Assembly (NCBI GenBank): GCA_009777935.1 | Contig: WRKU01000014.1 | Location: 1 to 37,392, forward strand | Origin: Coriobacteriia bacterium | GTDB lineage: Bacteria; Actinomycetota; Coriobacteriia; WRKU01 | Length of the DNA: 37,392 bases | Direction: 5' to 3' | Shown here: positions 38-37,392 of the stretch, in pieces | Numbering within the stretch: the stretch's first letter is position 1 | Layout of the letters: each line of letters begins with the position of its first letter | The notes under the pieces: model-generated | Told to the model about the DNA's origin: nothing | The model's database searches: none | The model's input: the letters and a program-made list of their open reading frames with translations, nothing else | Translations under genes and position numbers: made by a program

Positions 38-2177
38 ATGAACGATAACCACACCCTGCGGGGGGGGGGGGTCTCCACTTTCTGAGGTAGAGCCGCCCTC
101 TACTGATGCCACTACCGGCAGCGTTACCGGCACTGATGTGCCAAAAAGCCGCAAGCGTCAAAACACCACCATAGCCATCATAATTGCCCTACTCCTTCTG
201 CTTCTGGGAGCATTTGCCTGGGGCACTATGCAGCGCGCCATCAATCAGTTTGCAAACCTCAACACACCACGCGCCGTCCTTCATGATGAATTCAGGCGTC
301 TTGATGCGGCCGAGTGGCAAAAGAGCGTATGGGTACAGAACTCAGGCAGCTCACCCTTTATTGCACGCATCTCAGCATCTGAATTCATGCAGTGGATTGA
401 AAGTGAAAACTGGGATAGAGGACGCAATATCATAGAAGGTATTCCTTTTGCTGACCCTATTCCGGCAGCTATAGAGACTACCTTAACTCCCACACTTGAT
501 TCAGGCACGTGGGGCGTAGATGGCACCCTTATCGATACCCAAACAGCGTGGTTTAACGTCACCGCCGACATGTGGTCGATAAGAGGCTTGACCGACCCGA
601 CGAGCCTTGCCAATGCAGCTCCTGCCAGAGGACACGCAGCAGATGGCACTCCTTTCAGCCAATACTGGGAGTGGGACTCAGATCACCTCACCTACGCTGA
701 GTGGACAGCACTTCCTCTCTCACAGCGCTCAAACAAGTGGGTACTCGCTGACGATGGCTTTTTCTACTACACCTCTGTTATCAGACCGGATGCCAATACA
801 CTCCCCCTCATGACAGGAGTCTCTGCTGCTTCAGGTTTTGATCCGCTCAAGCATGCGTTTTACTATGCTATCGATATCCAGATGGAGGTCGTCACCCAAG
901 ATGATGTGGGTGCCATGAAAGACGGCCTTGTACCCAGCAGTGGCACCGACGGCGTCCCTTTGCGTGCAGCATCAACACAGGGTAAGGCGATACTTGACAG
1001 TATTAACTGGACGGCACCCATTATCGGAGGCTTGAGCATCAACGGCATCGAAGGTCTCTCAATAACCGTCTCTCAAGGTGAAGTGATCACGCTTGAAGTA
1101 GATGCCGGAGACGACCCTAATCTGACCTACCTGTGGCAGACCACCAACTCACCTTGGAACGATGCTCCGGGCACTAACGATGAGGTCGAATACACCGTGG
1201 ACACCAACATCTCTGGCACCTACGAGTTTAGGGTGCTGGTCTCAAACTCAGGCAACGCACCGGTCGAAAACGACGGACACACGACGGCAAGCGACACGAT
1301 TACCATCACGGTGTTACTCGACCCACTGGCACCGCAGCCTGCCGTGGGCACAACCCCGGTACGCACCAACATACCGAACTCTAACGATCCCAGCTCACCT
1401 TATCGCGTACTCTTTGACGGCATCCCCTTCTGGCGCATTGCCAGCGCAACGCATGAGGGCAAGACCTACTACCTCATCGTGAGCCAGCACATTTACAGCA
1501 CTGGCACACAGTTTAATCCAGCCACCACCGATGGCAATTTCTGGCTCTCGCGCACTAGTGCACCCGGCACCAAATCCAGCCTGATGACGGCGATGGATAA
1601 CTGGTACAATTCTCGAGGTCCGCAGCTTAAGGAAGCTGCCGTGTTCCCTGCCTTTAGTGGCACGATTAACCAGACTACACCGACAAGCTCGACCTTTGGT
1701 ACTGAAGGCACCACGGGTATGACGACGCAGGCAAGTTGGATAGTGGGCAACAACTGGTTTACGGCTAACAGCAATCGCTACATCAACGGCCAGTCTCGTC
1801 CGAGCGCAATACCGGTAGGCACTGCGAGTGCTAACACTCAGCCTCTCACCGGCGGCGGTATCGTAGCCTTCCCCTTATCTGGTACTGAGATTCTGGCGTA
1901 CTTCCCTGATTCACAGGGAACTACTGACGCAACTCGCGTGTCAGCTATCACGAACGACCAGCGCCTTGGTCGTGCGGTCAGTGACCAGCATTGGTGGTCG
2001 CGCACACGGGGTAACGCCGCCACCGGTGCGGGCGGAGTAAACAACTGGGGCCACGCGCAATTCGGGTTCGGCACCCTCAACAACACCGGCGTCTGGAGCG
2101 CGGGTGCGGCCAGCTTAGTCGAGGTTACCAACACCACCATTTCCCTCCGTCCTGCCCTGTGGGTAGTCGCGCCGTAA
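38..2177 (+). CDS. Phase-variable surface protein, copy A (OFF: 12 G)
   Basis: ATG at 38 follows AGGG and opens a frame reading MNDNHTLRGGG, then stops at TGA 83-85. The long frame, which could nominally start at GTG 138, is open upstream through the whole poly-G tract, has no ribosome binding site at 138, and joins the ATG if the run is 11 G. The ON product would be 712 residues: a hydrophilic 35-residue leader ending in KSRKR, one hydrophobic segment (IAIIIALLLLLLGAFAW), a region with a TasA/camelysin-like pattern (WVQNSGSSPFIARI), an Ig-like domain at about 340-430 (LTYLWQTT, GTYEFRVLVSN), and a C-terminal domain of about 260 residues with the DUF6273 signature (WWSRTRG, LRPALWVVAP). There is no LPxTG-like sorting signal, so membrane anchoring or release is likely. 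The function is unknown; cell-surface exposure is inferred. The gene could be a fixed pseudogene or carry a G-count error, but the conserved design in copies B and C argues for phase variation. Confidence 0.8.
60..71 (+). repeat. Poly-G tract of 12, copy A
   Basis: Twelve consecutive G lie between codon 7 (CTG) plus one C and the sequence TCTCC. Eleven G would put the start codon in frame with the 679-codon open frame; 12 puts it in the frame that ends at TGA 83-85. Long G runs are classical slipped-strand mutation sites in other phase-variable genes. The exact count depends on sequencing accuracy. Confidence 0.9.
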
Positions 2178-3087: not shown

Positions 3088-3106
3088 CATAGTGAAGGGA
3101 GCTCTC

Positions 3107-3442
3107 ATGAGCACTAACTCGGCGATGTTATCAACAAAAGTTTCGCCTGAAATCCGTGAACGATTCGAAGAGCTTGCCGGCTCATATGGAACCTCCCCGG
3201 CAGCCGCTTTGCGCATGTTGACGTATGCCTTTGTCAAGGCTGAAGGGTTTCCTTATGCGATGAGTGGCCAAAAGGAGACTATAAGGGAGACGTCTGTTGT
3301 GCCGCTGGAAGCGAAAACCTTTTTACCTGCGCTTGAAAAAATGCAAGAATCTATGACAGGCCAAGCAGAAAAGGCAGGACTCGTAGGCGATGAAGACGTG
3401 ATGGCACTTGTGCGAGAGGTCCGCTACAAGGAGACTGCATAG
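3107..3442 (+). CDS. Putative antitoxin, RelB/DinJ-like
   Basis: A 111-residue protein from ATG 3107, preceded by AAGGGAG at 3095-3101; a GTG at 3092 lies before that ribosome binding site and is rejected. The N-terminus (MLSTKVSPEIRERFEELAGSYG, followed by SPAAALRMLTYAFV) has the strand plus two-helix pattern of RelB/DinJ-type ribbon-helix-helix antitoxins. The rest, about 60-111, is probably the flexible toxin-binding tail. Its stop codon overlaps the toxin start (TAGTG), which fixes the pairing. Expected role: bind the PIN toxin and repress the operon at the palindrome over the -10. The family assignment rests on the N-terminal pattern only. Confidence 0.7.
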   Translation: MSTNSAMLSTKVSPEIRERFEELAGSYGTSPAAALRMLTYAFVKAEGFPYAMSGQKETIRETSVVPLEAKTFLPALEKMQESMTGQAEKAGLVGDEDVMALVREVRYKETA

Positions 3443-3858
3443 TGCGCTGCCTCATAGACACCAATGTTTTGGTATCGGCTTTTATGTGGCCGCAAAGCAT
3501 TCCTGCAGAGGCGGTTAAGATTGCGAGTACGGCACCTTTTTCTGCTTATGTTAGTCCATATTCTCTGGCAGAACTTAGGGAAGTTATTGTGCGTAAATGG
3601 CCTGAGAACTTGAGCGATCTTGATGTCTTTATAGAAAGTATCCTGCTTCATATGGTGGTAACCACTCAAACCATCGATTACCTTACCGAACAGATGCCTT
3701 TGCGAGATGTGAACGATATGCCTATTCTGGCAGATGCATTGGGCGAAGGTGTCGATATCATTATTTCAGGGGATAAGGATTTCATCGAGGCAGGACTCTC
3801 TAAGCCGCAGGTTTTGACACCGGCTGAGTTTATCAAGCAGCATTTTTCAAATCCATAG
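3442..3858 (+). CDS. PIN-domain ribonuclease toxin
   Basis: A 138-residue PIN-domain protein of the 'putative toxin component, PIN family' type. Acidic residues expected to bind metal are visible: Asp6 in LIDTNVLVSAF, Glu44 in SLAELREV, Asp92 in RDVNDMPILADAL, and Asp111/Asp113 in IISGDKDF. The start is GTG 3442, which shares a base with the antitoxin stop TAG, indicating translational coupling. PIN toxins are Mg-dependent RNases whose activity is held in check by the cognate antitoxin. The module sits between two surface-protein copies and inside 17-bp direct repeats (2653 and 3874), so it may stabilise this variable region; that is inference. Confidence 0.85.
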   Translation: MRCLIDTNVLVSAFMWPQSIPAEAVKIASTAPFSAYVSPYSLAELREVIVRKWPENLSDLDVFIESILLHMVVTTQTIDYLTEQMPLRDVNDMPILADALGEGVDIIISGDKDFIEAGLSKPQVLTPAEFIKQHFSNP

Positions 3859-3998: not shown

Positions 3999-4094
3999 TT
4001 GCGAGGAGCTAGCAAAATTTGCTACACTGGAAACGATAGTTACAAGCTAATCAATATAACGAGACATGCGTTTTTTGCATGAAATGAGGGCAAA
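3999..4094 (+). promoter_or_regulatory. Promoter and leader of surface copy B
   Basis: TTGCGA (3999-4004), 18 bases, TACACT (4023-4028). The block from here to the start codon is strongly conserved in copy C (37246-37342), including ACTGGAAACGATAGTTAC just after the -10. A small hairpin, CATGC (4065-4069) with GCATG (4077-4081) around a GTTTTTT loop, precedes GAGGG, the ribosome binding site of ATG 4095. The leader is about 60 nt. Strong conservation in a non-coding stretch suggests shared expression control of the family. Confidence 0.7.
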
Positions 4095-6217
4095 ATGAGC
4101 ACAACTGAGAAAACCACACGGGGGGGGGGTCCCTACTTTCTGAGGTAGCGACTTCTGCTACCGACACCGACGCGCTTCGCAGTCGCAAGCGTCAAAACAC
4201 CACTATAGCCATCATAATCGCACTACTCTTGCTCCTTTTGGGAGCTTTTGCGTGGGGTACGATGCAGCGTGCCATCAATCAGTTTGCGAGCCTGAACACA
4301 CCACGCGCAGTACTTCACGACGAATTCAGACGTCTTGATGCGACTGAGTGGCAAAAGAGAGTATGGGTACAAAACTCAGGCAACTCACCCTTTATCGCAC
4401 GCATATCCGCATCTGAGTTTATGCAATGGATAGAAGCCGAAGACTGGAGTCGTGGTAGAAACATCATAGAGGGTATTCCCTTTGCGAGTCCTATCCCTGA
4501 AGCTATCGAGACGACACTTACTCCTACGCTTGATTCAGACACCTGGGGAGCCGATGGTACTCTTATTGATACGCAAACGGCGTGGTTTGATGTCACCGCC
4601 GACATGTGGTCTATCAGAGGCCTTACTGATGCGACCAGCCTTACCCAAGCAGCTCCTGCCCGAGGACACGCAGCTGATGGTACTCCTTTCAGCGAGTACT
4701 GGGACTGGGACTCAGATCACCTGACCTACACCGAATGGACCGCACTACCTCTTGCGCAGCGCTCAAACAAGTGGGTGTTAGCTGATGATGGCTTTTTCTA
4801 CTACACCTCTGTCATCAGACCTGACAGCAATACACTCCCCTTGATGACCGGCGTGAGCGCTGCCACCGGCTTCGATCCGCTTAAGCACGCTTTTTACTAT
4901 GCCATCGATATCCAGATGGAAGTGGTTACCCAAGATGATGTCAGCGCTATGAAAGACGGCCTTGTTCCCAGCAGTGGCACTGACGGTGTCCCTTTGCGCA
5001 CAGCATCAACGCAGGGTAAGGCGATACTTGATAGCATCACATGGAATACCCCCATCATTGGAGGACTCAATATCAATGGTGTCGAAGGTCTTGAGATAGC
5101 TGTGGTGCCAGGTACGCCAGTCACCCTTGAAGTCGATGCTGGTGGTGACCCTGATCTCACCTACCTGTGGCAGACCACCAACTCTCCATGGAATGACGCT
5201 CCGGGTACTAACGACGAAACAGAATACACGGTAGATACCAACATAGTAGGCACCTTCGAGTTTAGAGTGCTTGTCTCTAACAGTGGCAATACACCCGCAG
5301 AAGACGACGGACACACGACCGTCTCAGATACTATCACTGTAGAAGTAGAGCCATCACCCGTACCCACGCCTGTCACCCCGACGCGCCGTGACTTTGGTCC
5401 AGTTCAGTTTTTTAGAATCGCTGAGCAGACGATTGATGGTGTCACTTATGACTTGTTAGTAACACGCTATGTATACGGCTCCAACCCGACGGCAGCCTGG
5501 GCTTATGTGCGGTTCAATGAAACGAGTCAGGGTAATTTCTGGCTTACCAACGCAGACGGTACCGCCAAATCTACCGTTATTGCTGGCATGGACAGCTGGT
5601 ACAACGGTCTTACGGGAGCTGGCCTTGATTCAGGCACCAACAATCTTAAGTCTCTTGCCGTACAGGCCGACTTCACCGGCAGCAATGCAGGTGCTGGTAG
5701 CACACGCACCTTTGGTACCGAAGGCTTGACGGGTCATCCCACTGTGACAGCACTTGCAGGCACCACGAACGCTGATGTGGCCGCAAACATTGCATTCATG
5801 CAAGATCCGGAAAACTATCCTGAGGCAATCTCGACGCCCTCGAGCAGAGCAGCAGCAAATCCCACTTCATCATCGCCGAGCACGGGTCAAGGTGTTGTCG
5901 CCTTCCCGCTCTCAGGCAAAGAGATACTGAGTTACTTTCCTAACATTGGGACAAATACGTATACGGGAAACGACATACTAGCACCACGAGCGTACGGCGT
6001 TGCTGCTAATCACGCAGGGTCGACGACAGCCCGCAGTTGGTGGTCCCGCTCGCGTAGTAACGAGGCTAATCGGGCGGGTTACGTGAACAGCAGCGGTAGT
6101 GTGCTCAGCTCTTGGGGTCGCTTGAACTACACTGGTGCGTGGGGTGCTCCCGCTGGCGGTACGATTACTGACAACGCTTACGCGCTTCGCCCCGCTCTTT
6201 GGGTGGTCGCGCCGTAA
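4095..6217 (+). CDS. Phase-variable surface protein, copy B (OFF: 10 G)
   Basis: ATG 4095 opens MSTTEKTTRGGG and, with 10 G, stops at TAG 4146-4148. The long frame is open from before the tract to 6217 and joins the ATG at 11 G, giving 707 residues. The only start candidate inside the long frame, TTG 4229, lies within the hydrophobic segment and would destroy it. Layout: leader ending RSRKR, hydrophobic segment (IAIIIALLLLLLGAFAW), TasA/camelysin-like region, Ig-like domain, and a C-terminal DUF6273-type domain from about 5370 on (WWSRSRS, YVNSSGSV, LRPALWVVAP). Up to about 5335 most residues match copy A; beyond that the two diverge, although the last residues are again identical. There is no sorting signal. 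The function is unknown; a variable surface antigen or binding protein is an inference. Confidence 0.8.
4120..4129 (+). repeat. Poly-G tract of 10, copy B
   Basis: Ten G between ACAC and TCCCTAC. Eleven G would connect the ATG at 4095 with the downstream frame. The tract sits at the same codon position relative to the downstream sequence (GGG, Ser, Pro/Leu, Leu, Ser, Glu, Val) as in copy A, although the codons upstream of it differ. Confidence 0.9.
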
Positions 6218-12513: not shown

Positions 12514-14022
12514 TTGTCTGAACTTAGGGAATCTTCACAACGCGGGTTTGGTACTGGTGCCTACCCTGCTCACCTCATGGATTTCTTTCATTGGGGAGCG
12601 TTTGCGTTGCCCGAGGTTTGGGCTATCGCTTATGGTGCGTGGCTCATCTTCCTCGTTGCACTTATTGCAACGTTTATCCCCTATGCGTTGCTTCTGATTA
12701 TTGGTACCGGTGCGTTCGCCTCGTCGGTAGAGGTCATCTTTGGTGTCGCTACCTTAGGCCAAATGCTCAGTGTCATGGTGCGCCTGTGGGCGGGTATCAA
12801 TGCGAATCGTCTCGCATGGAAGCGCGAAGTCAACTATCTCACGCGTACCGGCAGGGCCGGACGCCCTCGCAAAGTTATTGCGCAGTATCTTGCCACACAG
12901 CGTATCTGGAGCACGATAGGGATGGCCGTGATGCTTGTTATCATGGGGGCGACAATCGCCATGGACTACAGCGTCATGCGCGAGGGCGATCAGACACTCG
13001 CATACGGAACGCTTGCCTTCAATCTTGTATGGCTGTTCGCACTCTTTGTCAGTGGATGGTGGATGGCGCGTAAGGGCAGCATGTACTCTGATCCGCTGGC
13101 ATTATTCCGATATCGTGAATTGCGTCCGGCGACGAAGGAAGAGGCTGGTCACCCCTATCTTAAGGCCACCGACACACCGGCTGCGCCTGAGCACGAAAGT
13201 CCCGATATCTATACTTATCCGCTGGTCAATGGCGTGATGTTGCCGGCGCTTGGCTTCAATACGCATAAAATTGAACCGGGTGAGCCGACGCTTGCCGCCG
13301 TTGCTAAAGCTCTCGATGCAGGTTATCGGCTCTTTGACACGGCCTCTATTTACGATAACGAGTATTCGGTTGGGCAAGCAATTGCGCAGGCCGAAATCCC
13401 GCGTGACGAGCTGTTCTTAGCAAGCAAGGTGTGGAACGACCAGCAAGGCTACATCAAGACGATACGCGCATTCGAAAAAACCTGTGCCAATCTGGGCGTA
13501 GACTATCTTGACCTGTATCTCATTCACTGGCCGCGTGCCACGACGCTCAAGTCGACATGGCGGGCACTTGAGCACCTCTATCGTTCCGGTAAGGCACGTG
13601 CCATCGGTGTGTGTAATTTTGAAGAGGAGCACCTCAATCTGCTGCTCGAGTCCGCACGGATTGCCCCGATGGTCAATCAAATCGAAATACATCCGCGTTT
13701 TACGCGCGAAAAACTCATTCTTTACTGTTGGAACAACGGTATTCTCGTGCAGTCATGGATGCCGACGATGGGGGGCGAGGTTGCTAGCATTCCCGAGGTC
13801 ACTAAGGTCGCACGCGCGCATGGTCGGACCGAAGCACAGGTCGCATTGCGCTGGGCGATTCAGCATAATATTGCGGTGCTTGCGCACGGGCTTTCCTCCG
13901 AGCAGATCACAGAACACGCACAAATCTTCGACTTTGTACTAACATCGGAAGAAATGGCTGCTATCGACGAAGCCAATCGTGACGGCCGAGTAGGGCCTGA
14001 CCCTGCCGATTATTCTTGGTAG
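12514..14022 (+). CDS. Membrane domain fused to aldo/keto reductase
   Basis: Up to 502 residues if started at TTG 12514; ATG 12577 (residue 22) is an alternative, and neither has a strong ribosome binding site. Residues about 25-185 form a membrane domain with three to four hydrophobic segments, opening FHWGAFALPEVW and containing AWKREVNYL and TQRIWSTIG. After a linker, residues about 235-502 are a complete aldo/keto reductase: the catalytic tetrad is Asp275 and Tyr280 (FDTASIYDNE), Lys305 (LASKVW) and His338 (YLIHWP), and the fold ends in the usual DGRVGPDP tail. Known family members reduce aldehydes and ketones with NADPH and are soluble, so the membrane fusion is unusual. The membrane domain recurs in the protein at 20841-21449. 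The substrate is unknown. Confidence 0.8.
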   Translation: MSELRESSQRGFGTGAYPAHLMDFFHWGAFALPEVWAIAYGAWLIFLVALIATFIPYALLLIIGTGAFASSVEVIFGVATLGQMLSVMVRLWAGINANRLAWKREVNYLTRTGRAGRPRKVIAQYLATQRIWSTIGMAVMLVIMGATIAMDYSVMREGDQTLAYGTLAFNLVWLFALFVSGWWMARKGSMYSDPLALFRYRELRPATKEEAGHPYLKATDTPAAPEHESPDIYTYPLVNGVMLPALGFNTHKIEPGEPTLAAVAKALDAGYRLFDTASIYDNEYSVGQAIAQAEIPRDELFLASKVWNDQQGYIKTIRAFEKTCANLGVDYLDLYLIHWPRATTLKSTWRALEHLYRSGKARAIGVCNFEEEHLNLLLESARIAPMVNQIEIHPRFTREKLILYCWNNGILVQSWMPTMGGEVASIPEVTKVARAHGRTEAQVALRWAIQHNIAVLAHGLSSEQITEHAQIFDFVLTSEEMAAIDEANRDGRVGPDPADYSW

Positions 14023-14041
14023 CCGTCACACACAACGCGCA

Positions 14042-14917
14042 TTAATATCTTTCGCCGCCGGGACGGAATATAGCGGACAGCTGAGAGCGCAAAAAGTAGC
14101 GCGCATCCTGAAAATCATATTCGCAGGTAATAAGTGTAAGGAACTGTGCCGACGAGGCAAGATTTACCGGTACGGGAGGTGCAGCGCCGGCGATGACGCT
14201 TTGGTCGATTACCATATACTCGCGTGTTTGATTCGGCGTATAGATGAAGATATGCTGATGGAGATCGGCGAACTCGGGATCACGCCAGTAGGGTAGCTCG
14301 CCGAACATCGAGCGATCCTGCATGTGGTGGGCGTAGACACGTGCGTCAAGCTCCTTGAAGTCTGGACTAAGCCCTGCCTCAAGGAAAGGACATCCTCCTG
14401 CAGAGTACTCGCGTTGGAAGTTGTGCCTGAGGTAGAAATCGTTATCATCGGTCTGTGCAACAGGATAGTCAATACGAGTCCCGGGAATGAAAATCCATGC
14501 AATAATTTCGTCATTAATGAGTTGTAGCTCGGCAAAATCAATCCTACGTTCACGTGCTGCTTGGAGCATGGCCTCAGTCTGTCCGATACCATCTTCTGCG
14601 ATAGGCTGCTCGTCGGTGACTGCTTCCGCAAGATCGGTGTATCCCTTGTCGGCTCGGTAGTATTCCCACCAAATCGAAGTGATCTGGTAAAGGGCAAACA
14701 CCACAAGCGCGGCTCCGACGAACACCATGAACCAGCCCATAAATCCGCGTCGGCGCTTTGGTTTCTTTTCCTCCGGTGGCTGAGGTGGCAGGAGAGGTTG
14801 ATAGTGAGGTTGTTGCTGGTAGTAGGGCTGCTCGAATCCGGGTTGCTGAGGTGCACGGTAAGTCGGCTGCTGAGGCTGACCCGGATGGTAAAGCGGCGTG
14901 TTTGGTGGCGGGTACAT
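14042..14917 (-). CDS. Class B sortase, compact form
   Basis: A 291-residue type II membrane protein. A Pro/Gln/Tyr-rich cytoplasmic tail (1-50) and a basic patch KKPKRRR are followed by one membrane helix at about 59-80 and the sortase domain at 110-291. Class B hallmarks are visible: NDEIIAWIFIPGTRIDYPV, YLRHNF, YAHHM with catalytic His197, LITCEY with catalytic Cys265, and DARYFLR with Arg273. The His-to-Cys distance (68 residues) is about 25 shorter than in the well-known S. aureus SrtB (His130, Cys223), so the loop region between the last strands is reduced. ATG 14917 shares a base with the upstream thioesterase stop. No sorting-signal substrate gene was found in the window; the surface proteins here lack one. 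Confidence 0.85.
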   Translation of the reverse strand: MYPPPNTPLYHPGQPQQPTYRAPQQPGFEQPYYQQQPHYQPLLPPQPPEEKKPKRRRGFMGWFMVFVGAALVVFALYQITSIWWEYYRADKGYTDLAEAVTDEQPIAEDGIGQTEAMLQAARERRIDFAELQLINDEIIAWIFIPGTRIDYPVAQTDDNDFYLRHNFQREYSAGGCPFLEAGLSPDFKELDARVYAHHMQDRSMFGELPYWRDPEFADLHQHIFIYTPNQTREYMVIDQSVIAGAAPPVPVNLASSAQFLTLITCEYDFQDARYFLRSQLSAIFRPGGERY

Positions 14918-15435
14918 CAAGCATCACCGATTGTGAGGGTCGCTGGCATGGGGCGTGTATCTGTGCGCATGTCGGTTTCGTCGACCTCAAGGGTATCTGC
15001 ATCGACAATCTTATCAAGCGATGTTTTCAGATAGCGCCCTGTAGCCTCGACGGCAATACTGCCGTCTTCAAGCACGATTTCGCCCGCACCTTCGAATATA
15101 CGGGAGGTGTTGCGTGTAATGCGGCCACGCACGACAACTGGTTTATCGTAGGGAACCGGTTTACGATACTTGCAGGTCAGCTCGATGGTAACGGCCCAGA
15201 TATCGGGTTCATCCATCATAATGGCCCGCCCGACCGTCTCATCGAGCATGGCTGCCGCAATGCCGCCATGCACACGTCCGGGATAGCTCTGATGGGCATC
15301 GTGCACCTCAAAGATACCCACGAGCTCGCCTTGTTCACTCTCATAAAAACGTGCATGTAGACCGGAGTCGTTCTCCTCGCCGCACACAAAACACATGCGG
15401 GTGATATCCTGCGGCTGTGTAAGTTGATACTCCAT
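14917..15435 (-). CDS. PaaI/YbgC-like hotdog thioesterase
   Basis: A 172-residue single-domain hotdog protein. The segments CFVCGEEN (14-21), GRVHGGIAAAMLDETVGRA with the HGG loop and Asp/Glu of PaaI-type thioesterases, and RYLKTS near the end of the fold support the call; a charged tail of about 30 residues follows. Known relatives hydrolyse acyl-CoA thioesters; the substrate cannot be read from sequence. The Cys-x2-Cys near the N-terminus is common in this subgroup. ATG 15435 lies eight bases after TAGGAT on its strand, so it may be leaderless. It is translationally coupled to the sortase downstream, with no obvious functional link. Confidence 0.8.
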   Translation of the reverse strand: MEYQLTQPQDITRMCFVCGEENDSGLHARFYESEQGELVGIFEVHDAHQSYPGRVHGGIAAAMLDETVGRAIMMDEPDIWAVTIELTCKYRKPVPYDKPVVVRGRITRNTSRIFEGAGEIVLEDGSIAVEATGRYLKTSLDKIVDADTLEVDETDMRTDTRPMPATLTIGDA

Positions 15436-37342: not shown

Positions 37343-37392
37343 ATGAACGATAACCACACCCTGCGGGGGGGGGGGGGCTCCACTTTTTGGGT
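37343..37392 (+). CDS. Phase-variable surface protein, copy C (5' end only, 13 G)
   Basis: ATG 37343 opens the same first codons as copy A (MNDNHTLR), preceded by the same GAAATGAGGG site. The G run is 13. Comparing the sequence after the run with copy A (CTCCACTTT in both), the frame equivalent to the long frame of copy A would be reached with 12 G, so this copy also appears one G away from ON. The gene leaves the window 15 bases after the tract and its C-terminal domain is unseen. The last bases (TTTTTGGGT) differ from the CTGAGGTAG of copies A and B; this may be real or poor sequence at a contig end. Confidence 0.6.
   Translation, partial: MNDNHTLRGGGGSTFW
37365..37377 (+). repeat. Poly-G tract of 13, copy C
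   Basis: Thirteen G between CTGC and CTCCACTT. The tract lies at the same place after the start codon as in copy A, and the 43 bases before it, from GAAATGAGGG on, are identical in the two copies. Confidence 0.85.

Follow-up and report, generated by a model that had tools for sequence, protein, structure and literature searches.

Poly-G contingency loci, in which mononucleotide tracts of 9-13 G switch the reading frame of surface factors, are found in Campylobacter, Helicobacter and Neisseria. The opa genes of Neisseria form many unlinked copies with sequence-variable exposed parts, and a repeat in the leader-coding sequence switches each copy on its own. This repeat is a pentamer within the signal peptide, and the variation of the exposed parts arises by recombination. 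Surface-displayed targets of diversity-generating retroelements (DGRs) in Legionella and Treponema are cited in PMC8144416. In Bifidobacterium breve UCC2003, the sortase-pilus genes bbr_0113 and bbr_1889 have G-tracts whose frame is set by replication slippage and which are annotated in the OFF state; tracts of 11 and 12 G are present side by side, at 37% and 60%, respectively (PMC9187656).

Here, we analysed a stretch of 37,392 nucleotides from a Coriobacteriia bacterium, which we call the window. The genome has 1.1 Mb in 21 contigs and is 86% complete, and ~390 kb around family matches were examined. The G run at the start of gene A, the first gene of the window, is very probably a slipped-strand contingency switch that confers translational on/off phase variation on a large protein that is predicted to be exported.

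Start, tract and reading frame of gene A

The features of genes A and B, the third family leader and the dispersed non-coding element of the window all lie on the forward strand. Gene A has its start codon, ATG, at 38-40 (MNDNHTLR...), with the Shine-Dalgarno (SD) sequence GAGGG at 28-32, 5 nt ahead of it. The poly-G tract, which is the proposed switch, has 12 G and occupies 60-71. In the assembly it is in the OFF state, and the frame opened by the ATG is closed by the TGA at 83-85 after a product of 15 codons. The body of gene A in the ON frame extends over 72-2177 and consists of a transmembrane (TM) segment with a SipW-like signal (~153-230), a BsaA-like, an Ig/PKD-like and a variable C-terminal domain. 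The frame was recomputed for different tract lengths. A tract with n≡2 mod 3 G (11, 14 ...) fuses the ATG to a frame of 712 codons, and the phases n=0 and n=1 mod 3 give a stop after 14-17 codons. The sole start listed for the long frame is GTG 138, from which it has 679 codons, and the same frame extends upstream through the tract. These results bear out the original prediction, which had described an ATG with a ribosome binding site (RBS) that leads into 12 G and a TGA, and a 679-codon frame without a proper start that is open through the tract and joins the ATG at 11 G. The prediction had also called the gene currently OFF, which holds for the consensus assembly and not beyond it.

Translation could in principle start downstream of the tract, at GTG 138 in gene A, and the tract would then belong only to the 5' UTR. 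A plausible signal anchor follows GTG 138. However, this codon has no SD sequence and is not conserved among the paralogues, most of which have no start codon at this place, and the insertions and deletions after the tract are multiples of three. We therefore rejected a start 3' of the tract, which we consider highly improbable. In 15 of 16 copies, the distance between the tract and the RKRQN/TM segment is divisible by 3, with nine different lengths of 57-210 nt; the remaining copy, C8:53107, is missing one base next to the tract. Moreover, ATG, GTG and TTG are all absent between the tract and the TM segment in at least nine copies. Because of these frame-preserving distances and missing start codons, translation must begin at the upstream ATG.

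The window has 14 overlapping matches to G8, compared with 0.45 +/- 0.82 in dinucleotide shuffles. In the 390 kb of the genome, away from contig ends, there are 11 G/C runs of at least 8, all of them of 10-12 bases and none of 8 or 9, and the longest A/T run has 8. Apart from the tracts, the genome is thus almost devoid of long G/C runs. The G runs are far above chance, and they are placed to control expression. At the poly-G loci, a change by one unit toggles between the full frame and an early stop, with no alternative start.

Two further tracts of the gene A type, G10 and G13, are found in the window and go beyond the original prediction. Gene B, a 2.1-kb paralogue, has a -10-like TACACT at 4023-4028 that is conserved in the family leader type, an SD sequence GAGGG at 4086-4090 and a start codon at 4095-4097 (MSTTEKTT...). 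Its tract of 10 G (4120-4129) is OFF, with a stop after 17 codons, and its body in the ON frame extends over 4130-6217. The third family leader has its start codon at 37343-37345 and a tract of 13 G at 37365-37377, and the gene body is lost at the contig end. Between genes A and B, at 3092-3858, there is a pair of small ORFs, a weakly RelB-like one followed by a PIN domain (E 7e-12), which may form a toxin-antitoxin-like module.

The paralogue family and the lengths of its tracts

A protein search with the N-terminal half of gene A gave 26 further matches in the genome. Among these ~26 paralogues, the TM segment is closely preceded by a poly-G tract in about 17 bodies. The copies C1:2-2128, C6, C8:27112, C12 and C13 have no tract and appear to use ordinary starts. 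The family leader is composed of ATGAGGGC-N-ATG, followed by a stretch of 22 or 25 nt, of the MNDNHTLR or the MSTTEKTT type, and by the poly-G. This leader, with its RBS and ATG, is conserved at about 20 family copies, and the leaders can be grouped into a few promoter types. In the paralogue C1:2113, which has no tract, the same RBS and ATG as in gene A lead in frame straight into the TM segment; this copy can be read as a natural control for the start site of the family.

The tract of gene A lies 59 nt from a contig end of a metagenome assembly, and its length of 12 is a consensus count and less certain. Many contigs break at poly-G tracts, and the ends there carry garbled, G/C-rich sequence, which is consistent with two-colour Illumina chemistry. 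Examples from the genome (G000) are window 37378-37392, L081:1-110 and L095:17985-18013, where tract lengths are unreliable. Several garbled ends of this kind are what an origin of the tracts in sequencing or assembly, as two-colour poly-G, would produce. However, eight coding tracts are located 2-24 kb inside contigs, with clean flanks, at a constant position within the gene and on either strand of the contigs, and the same architecture occurs in unrelated genomes. These eight deep tracts on both strands exclude a pure artefact, so that the structure is real and an artefactual origin is left with a negligible probability. The right end of contig C9 overlaps the left end of the window over 137 nt at 92%, and C9 also has 12 G; it may be the continuation of the window, with the end of C17 as a weaker alternative.

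We recognised 21 coding tracts, with lengths of 10 (one), 11 (two), 12 (13), 13 (four) and 16 (one, at a corrupted contig end). Tracts of 10, 11, 12 and 13 G are found in near-identical flanks, between paralogues or contig ends. The start and the end of C7 share 113 nt with zero mismatches, and their sole difference is G11 versus G12. The two ends would represent either two loci or length heterogeneity at one; in either case, the flanks change more slowly than the tract. An alternative explanation is programmed transcriptional slippage or ribosomal frameshifting at the G run, in which the 12-G allele yields a constant, low amount of full-length protein and DNA length is not the switch. A length of 12 G common to most copies is expected of a fixed frameshift signal, but 10, 11 and 13 G also occur in near-identical copies, and one copy is directly in the open phase. 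Furthermore, the tract of the bifidobacterial pilin, the best-studied relative, has been traced to replication slippage (PMC9187656). We consider such slippage or frameshifting unlikely, and switching by tract length the preferred reading.

Thirteen copies, with a recognisable ATG and body, could be tested for their phase. Each has one open phase of 610-858 codons, and the other phases close within 17. In the assembly, 12 of these copies are OFF and a single one, C18:2407 with 11 G, is ON; against an expected 1/3, this gives ~0.04 by hand arithmetic, a value to which no weight is given because the copies are not independent. The single ON copy and the share of tracts with 12 G (13 of 21) count against a switch. 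The concentration at 12 G could reflect low slipperiness, recent homogenisation of the copies or an assembly that picks the mode. The OFF copies could also be decaying pseudogenes or silent donor cassettes, in which the tract is the site of the frame break. The 12 out-of-frame copies would fit this explanation, as would C-termini that look recombined or mutated and the copy at C4:26809, in which two tract flanks are fused. However, the bodies are open over 600-850 codons with no other lesions, where scattered stops are expected of pseudogenes; the frame is preserved before and after the tract, and about 20 copies retain the RBS, the ATG and the leader. Decay or donor function is very unlikely, more so than a programmed frameshift, and a length switch remains our preferred explanation.

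A second class of G-tracts (9-13 G) is located upstream of a TTGCGC-17-TATACT promoter, at L093:6281-6290, L083:218-230, L092:109-121 and L093:8704-8712. These tracts, at promoters of family leaders, may tune transcription. At L084:15810-15821 (G000:C4:26809-26820), the left flank of a promoter-type tract is fused at G12 to the right flank of a coding tract. This copy lacks promoter and ATG, and reflects either a misassembly or the loss of the sequence between two tracts. At L081:6377-6388 (G000:C2), a G12 (C12 on the coding strand) divides the gene of a predicted membrane protein into ORFs of 113 and 365 codons, which is probably a second, unrelated poly-G/C switch.

Encoded proteins and the retroelement signature

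The N-terminal extracellular part of the family proteins matches the BsaA family TIGR04090 weakly, with E-values of 1e-6 to 1e-7 and 27-31 bits, below the curated cut-off of 60. The Ig/PKD-like domain, which follows the BsaA-like part, is the sole recognisable domain in a low-confidence structure model of the full-length protein. The C-terminus is weakly DUF6273-like. The structure model of this part has a pLDDT of 63, and its best PDB matches, many of which are C-type lectins including Mtd, have E>1, with no significant fold match. The C-termini end in ...RPALWVR/VVAP and have no LPXTG, so that these proteins do not class as sortase pilins. Overall, the family proteins resemble SipW-dependent matrix proteins of the BsaA/TasA type. 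A SipW-type signal peptidase, above the TIGR02228 cut-off, is encoded at C8:46066-46530, and its gene adjoins those of an isopeptide-domain protein and two BsaA-like proteins. In the corresponding segments L189:10399-13764 and 13757-15049 (G000:C8), the neighbour is a 1122-aa protein with domains of the FctA/Cna_B/SpaA type beside the two BsaA-like genes. This is likely a core matrix/pilus locus.

The C-termini of genes A and B contain DGR-type variable regions at 1992-2159 (WWSRTRG...LRPAL) and 6038-6199, respectively. In 13 copies of equal length, 19 codons of the form NNC/NNT are hypervariable, with an entropy of 1.48 and 1.54 at codon positions 1 and 2 and 0.77 at position 3, which is 90% C or T. 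This order is reversed in the conserved codons (0.21, 0.09 and 0.88, respectively). Among 66 near-invariant columns a single one is A, and 45 of 51 variable columns contain A. This pattern bears the apparent mark of AAC/AAT template codons that were randomised at adenines, and active mutagenic retrohoming would be its cause. The genome has a DGR-type reverse transcriptase at C10:2395-3546, on the reverse strand, with an LGNQSSQ motif. Its best PDB match is the reverse transcriptase 8ub7 (E 3.7e-23), which we take to be that of the BPP-1 DGR. The adjacent Avd matches the PHROG 'Avd protein of DGR' with an E-value of 1.5e-11 and the NCBIfam model weakly (0.007). A template repeat was found neither by homology in C10:1-12000 nor with an inferred template across the 86%-complete genome. 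The prediction of a DGR in this genome thus rests on the reverse transcriptase, Avd and the signature of the variable regions, without such a repeat.

At 2640-2960 of the window there is a dispersed non-coding element of ~300 bp, with a hypermutated core that is homologous to the DGR variable regions. Twelve full-length copies were found, several of them just downstream of family genes. Each has a promoter-like TGYTACACTAG, the core and a conserved 3' part, in which a hairpin appears to covary. Transitions are as frequent as transversions in the core (668:670), where 16 columns are hypervariable. The 3' part has a ratio of 5:1 and zero hypervariable columns. The distance from ATG to core is not frame-conserved, which rules out the element as a small coding gene, and an Rfam search of the window gave no match. 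The elements are probably linked to the same diversification system, and may serve as template-type RNAs or as an archive of variable regions.

Proposed mechanism, distribution and relation to known systems

The frame arithmetic, the sole start, the conservation across the family and the length differences between copies are established from the sequence itself. Together with the start context, the downstream starts that are missing in most paralogues, the frame-preserving indels after the tract and the paralogue that uses this RBS and ATG without a tract, they support the on/off switch of the original prediction, which did not extend to the gene family or the retroelement signature. In the mechanism that we propose, transcription and the start codon would be constant, and replication slippage would add or remove single G's. 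A single phase out of three would link the ATG to the signal anchor and the extracellular part, and the others would yield a peptide of 14-17 residues. The about 17 paralogues, with their own tract each, would switch independently, so that cells would show different subsets of the family. Frequent slippage at a high rate, and with it phase switching, would be expected from what is established for tracts of G10-G12 in B. breve (PMC9187656). The ON protein would be exported through its SipW-like signal to the surface or matrix, the choice among the copies would be stochastic, and the variable regions at the C-termini would be rewritten by the DGR of the genome. We are evenly divided on whether these parts form a two-layer system of surface variation, in which the DGR would rewrite the C-terminal tips of about 20 SipW-type proteins, the poly-G tracts would pick among about 17 copies, some of them with a second, promoter G-tract, and the hypermutated non-coding copies would be template-like or archive RNAs.

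In the class, 230 of 300 genomes have G runs of at least 10. The pattern AGGA-N4-12-ATG-N6-36-G10 was found in 50 of 400 class genomes; the source genome, with its SD sequence GAGGG, is not among these. Of 48 class loci that were inspected, 33 are frame switches, in which one phase exceeds the others in length by a factor of about three or more. In the assembly, about three quarters of the loci are OFF and about a quarter are ON, and mostly a signal peptide or TM segment comes right after the tract. Were the tracts ordinary in-frame coding sequence, all loci would be ON; a mostly OFF consensus is typical of contingency loci. Further loci with this architecture, among L237-L286, encode prepilin-like (G330, G308, G292) and pilin-like (L239) proteins and sugar transferases (G070 and G138), and another is in G204. 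G009, from the same order and another family, has its own, independent multi-copy family, with tracts of 12-14 G. G008, also of the same order and of another family, has G11, G11 and G12 tracts (L100, L114 and L116, respectively) about 400 bp upstream of BsaA-like genes. Homologues of the gene family in relatives are only distant, N-terminal ones, in G008 and G001. A profile scan of GTDB contigs for tract-bearing homologues gave just two weak, unrelated matches, and neither the leader patterns nor the family profile were found in viral contigs.

Searches of the open-access literature turned up neither a description of phase variation by repeats for Coriobacteriia nor one of poly-G-switched DGR targets. 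The suggestion that the switch may be new therefore stands for the Coriobacteriia as far as this literature goes. It does not stand for the Actinomycetota, in another class of which such switches are established in Bifidobacterium pili (PMC9187656), and the pattern search suggests that similar loci are common across the same class. Poly-G switches are thus already known, and it is a large poly-G family diversified by a DGR that appears to be undescribed in this class. If confirmed, poly-G contingency switching would be a general and apparently unreported strategy for surface proteins in Coriobacteriia, and this organism would combine it with targeted diversification by a retroelement. One could then test whether uncultured bacteria associated with hosts or environments sample a DGR-diversified repertoire singly or a few members at a time, in the manner of antigenic variation in pathogens. 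The finding would also be a warning that automatic annotation will label such genes as pseudogenes or fragments, and that assemblies break at the tracts.

Like the systems with surface-displayed DGR targets in Legionella and Treponema, this genome has a DGR-type reverse transcriptase, Avd and C-terminal hypervariable NNC/NNT codons. However, it has at least 20 target-like copies, mostly switched by poly-G, and hypermutated non-coding copies, and its template repeat was not found. The family shares with the BsaA/TasA-type proteins of TIGR04090 a weak N-terminal profile match, a SipW-like signal and a SipW gene with two BsaA-like neighbours. It differs in being below the cut-off and greatly expanded, with a long cytosolic N-tail that carries the tract and with added Ig/PKD-like and variable domains. 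The mononucleotide frame switch is like that of the poly-G loci of Campylobacter, Helicobacter and Neisseria, in a different phylum and gene family. As in Neisseria opa, a dispersed family has a leader repeat that switches each copy, and variable exposed parts; here, a run of G ahead of the signal anchor replaces the opa repeat, and a retroelement signature takes the place of recombination. The pili of B. breve are likewise from the Actinomycetota, with G10-G12 tracts that separate the translation start or secretion signal from the main part of a surface protein. However, they are encoded by one or two pilus operons per genome and consist of LPXTG pilins, whereas the present family comprises about 17 dispersed, BsaA-like paralogues with no C-terminal sortase motif and with DGR-type variable ends.
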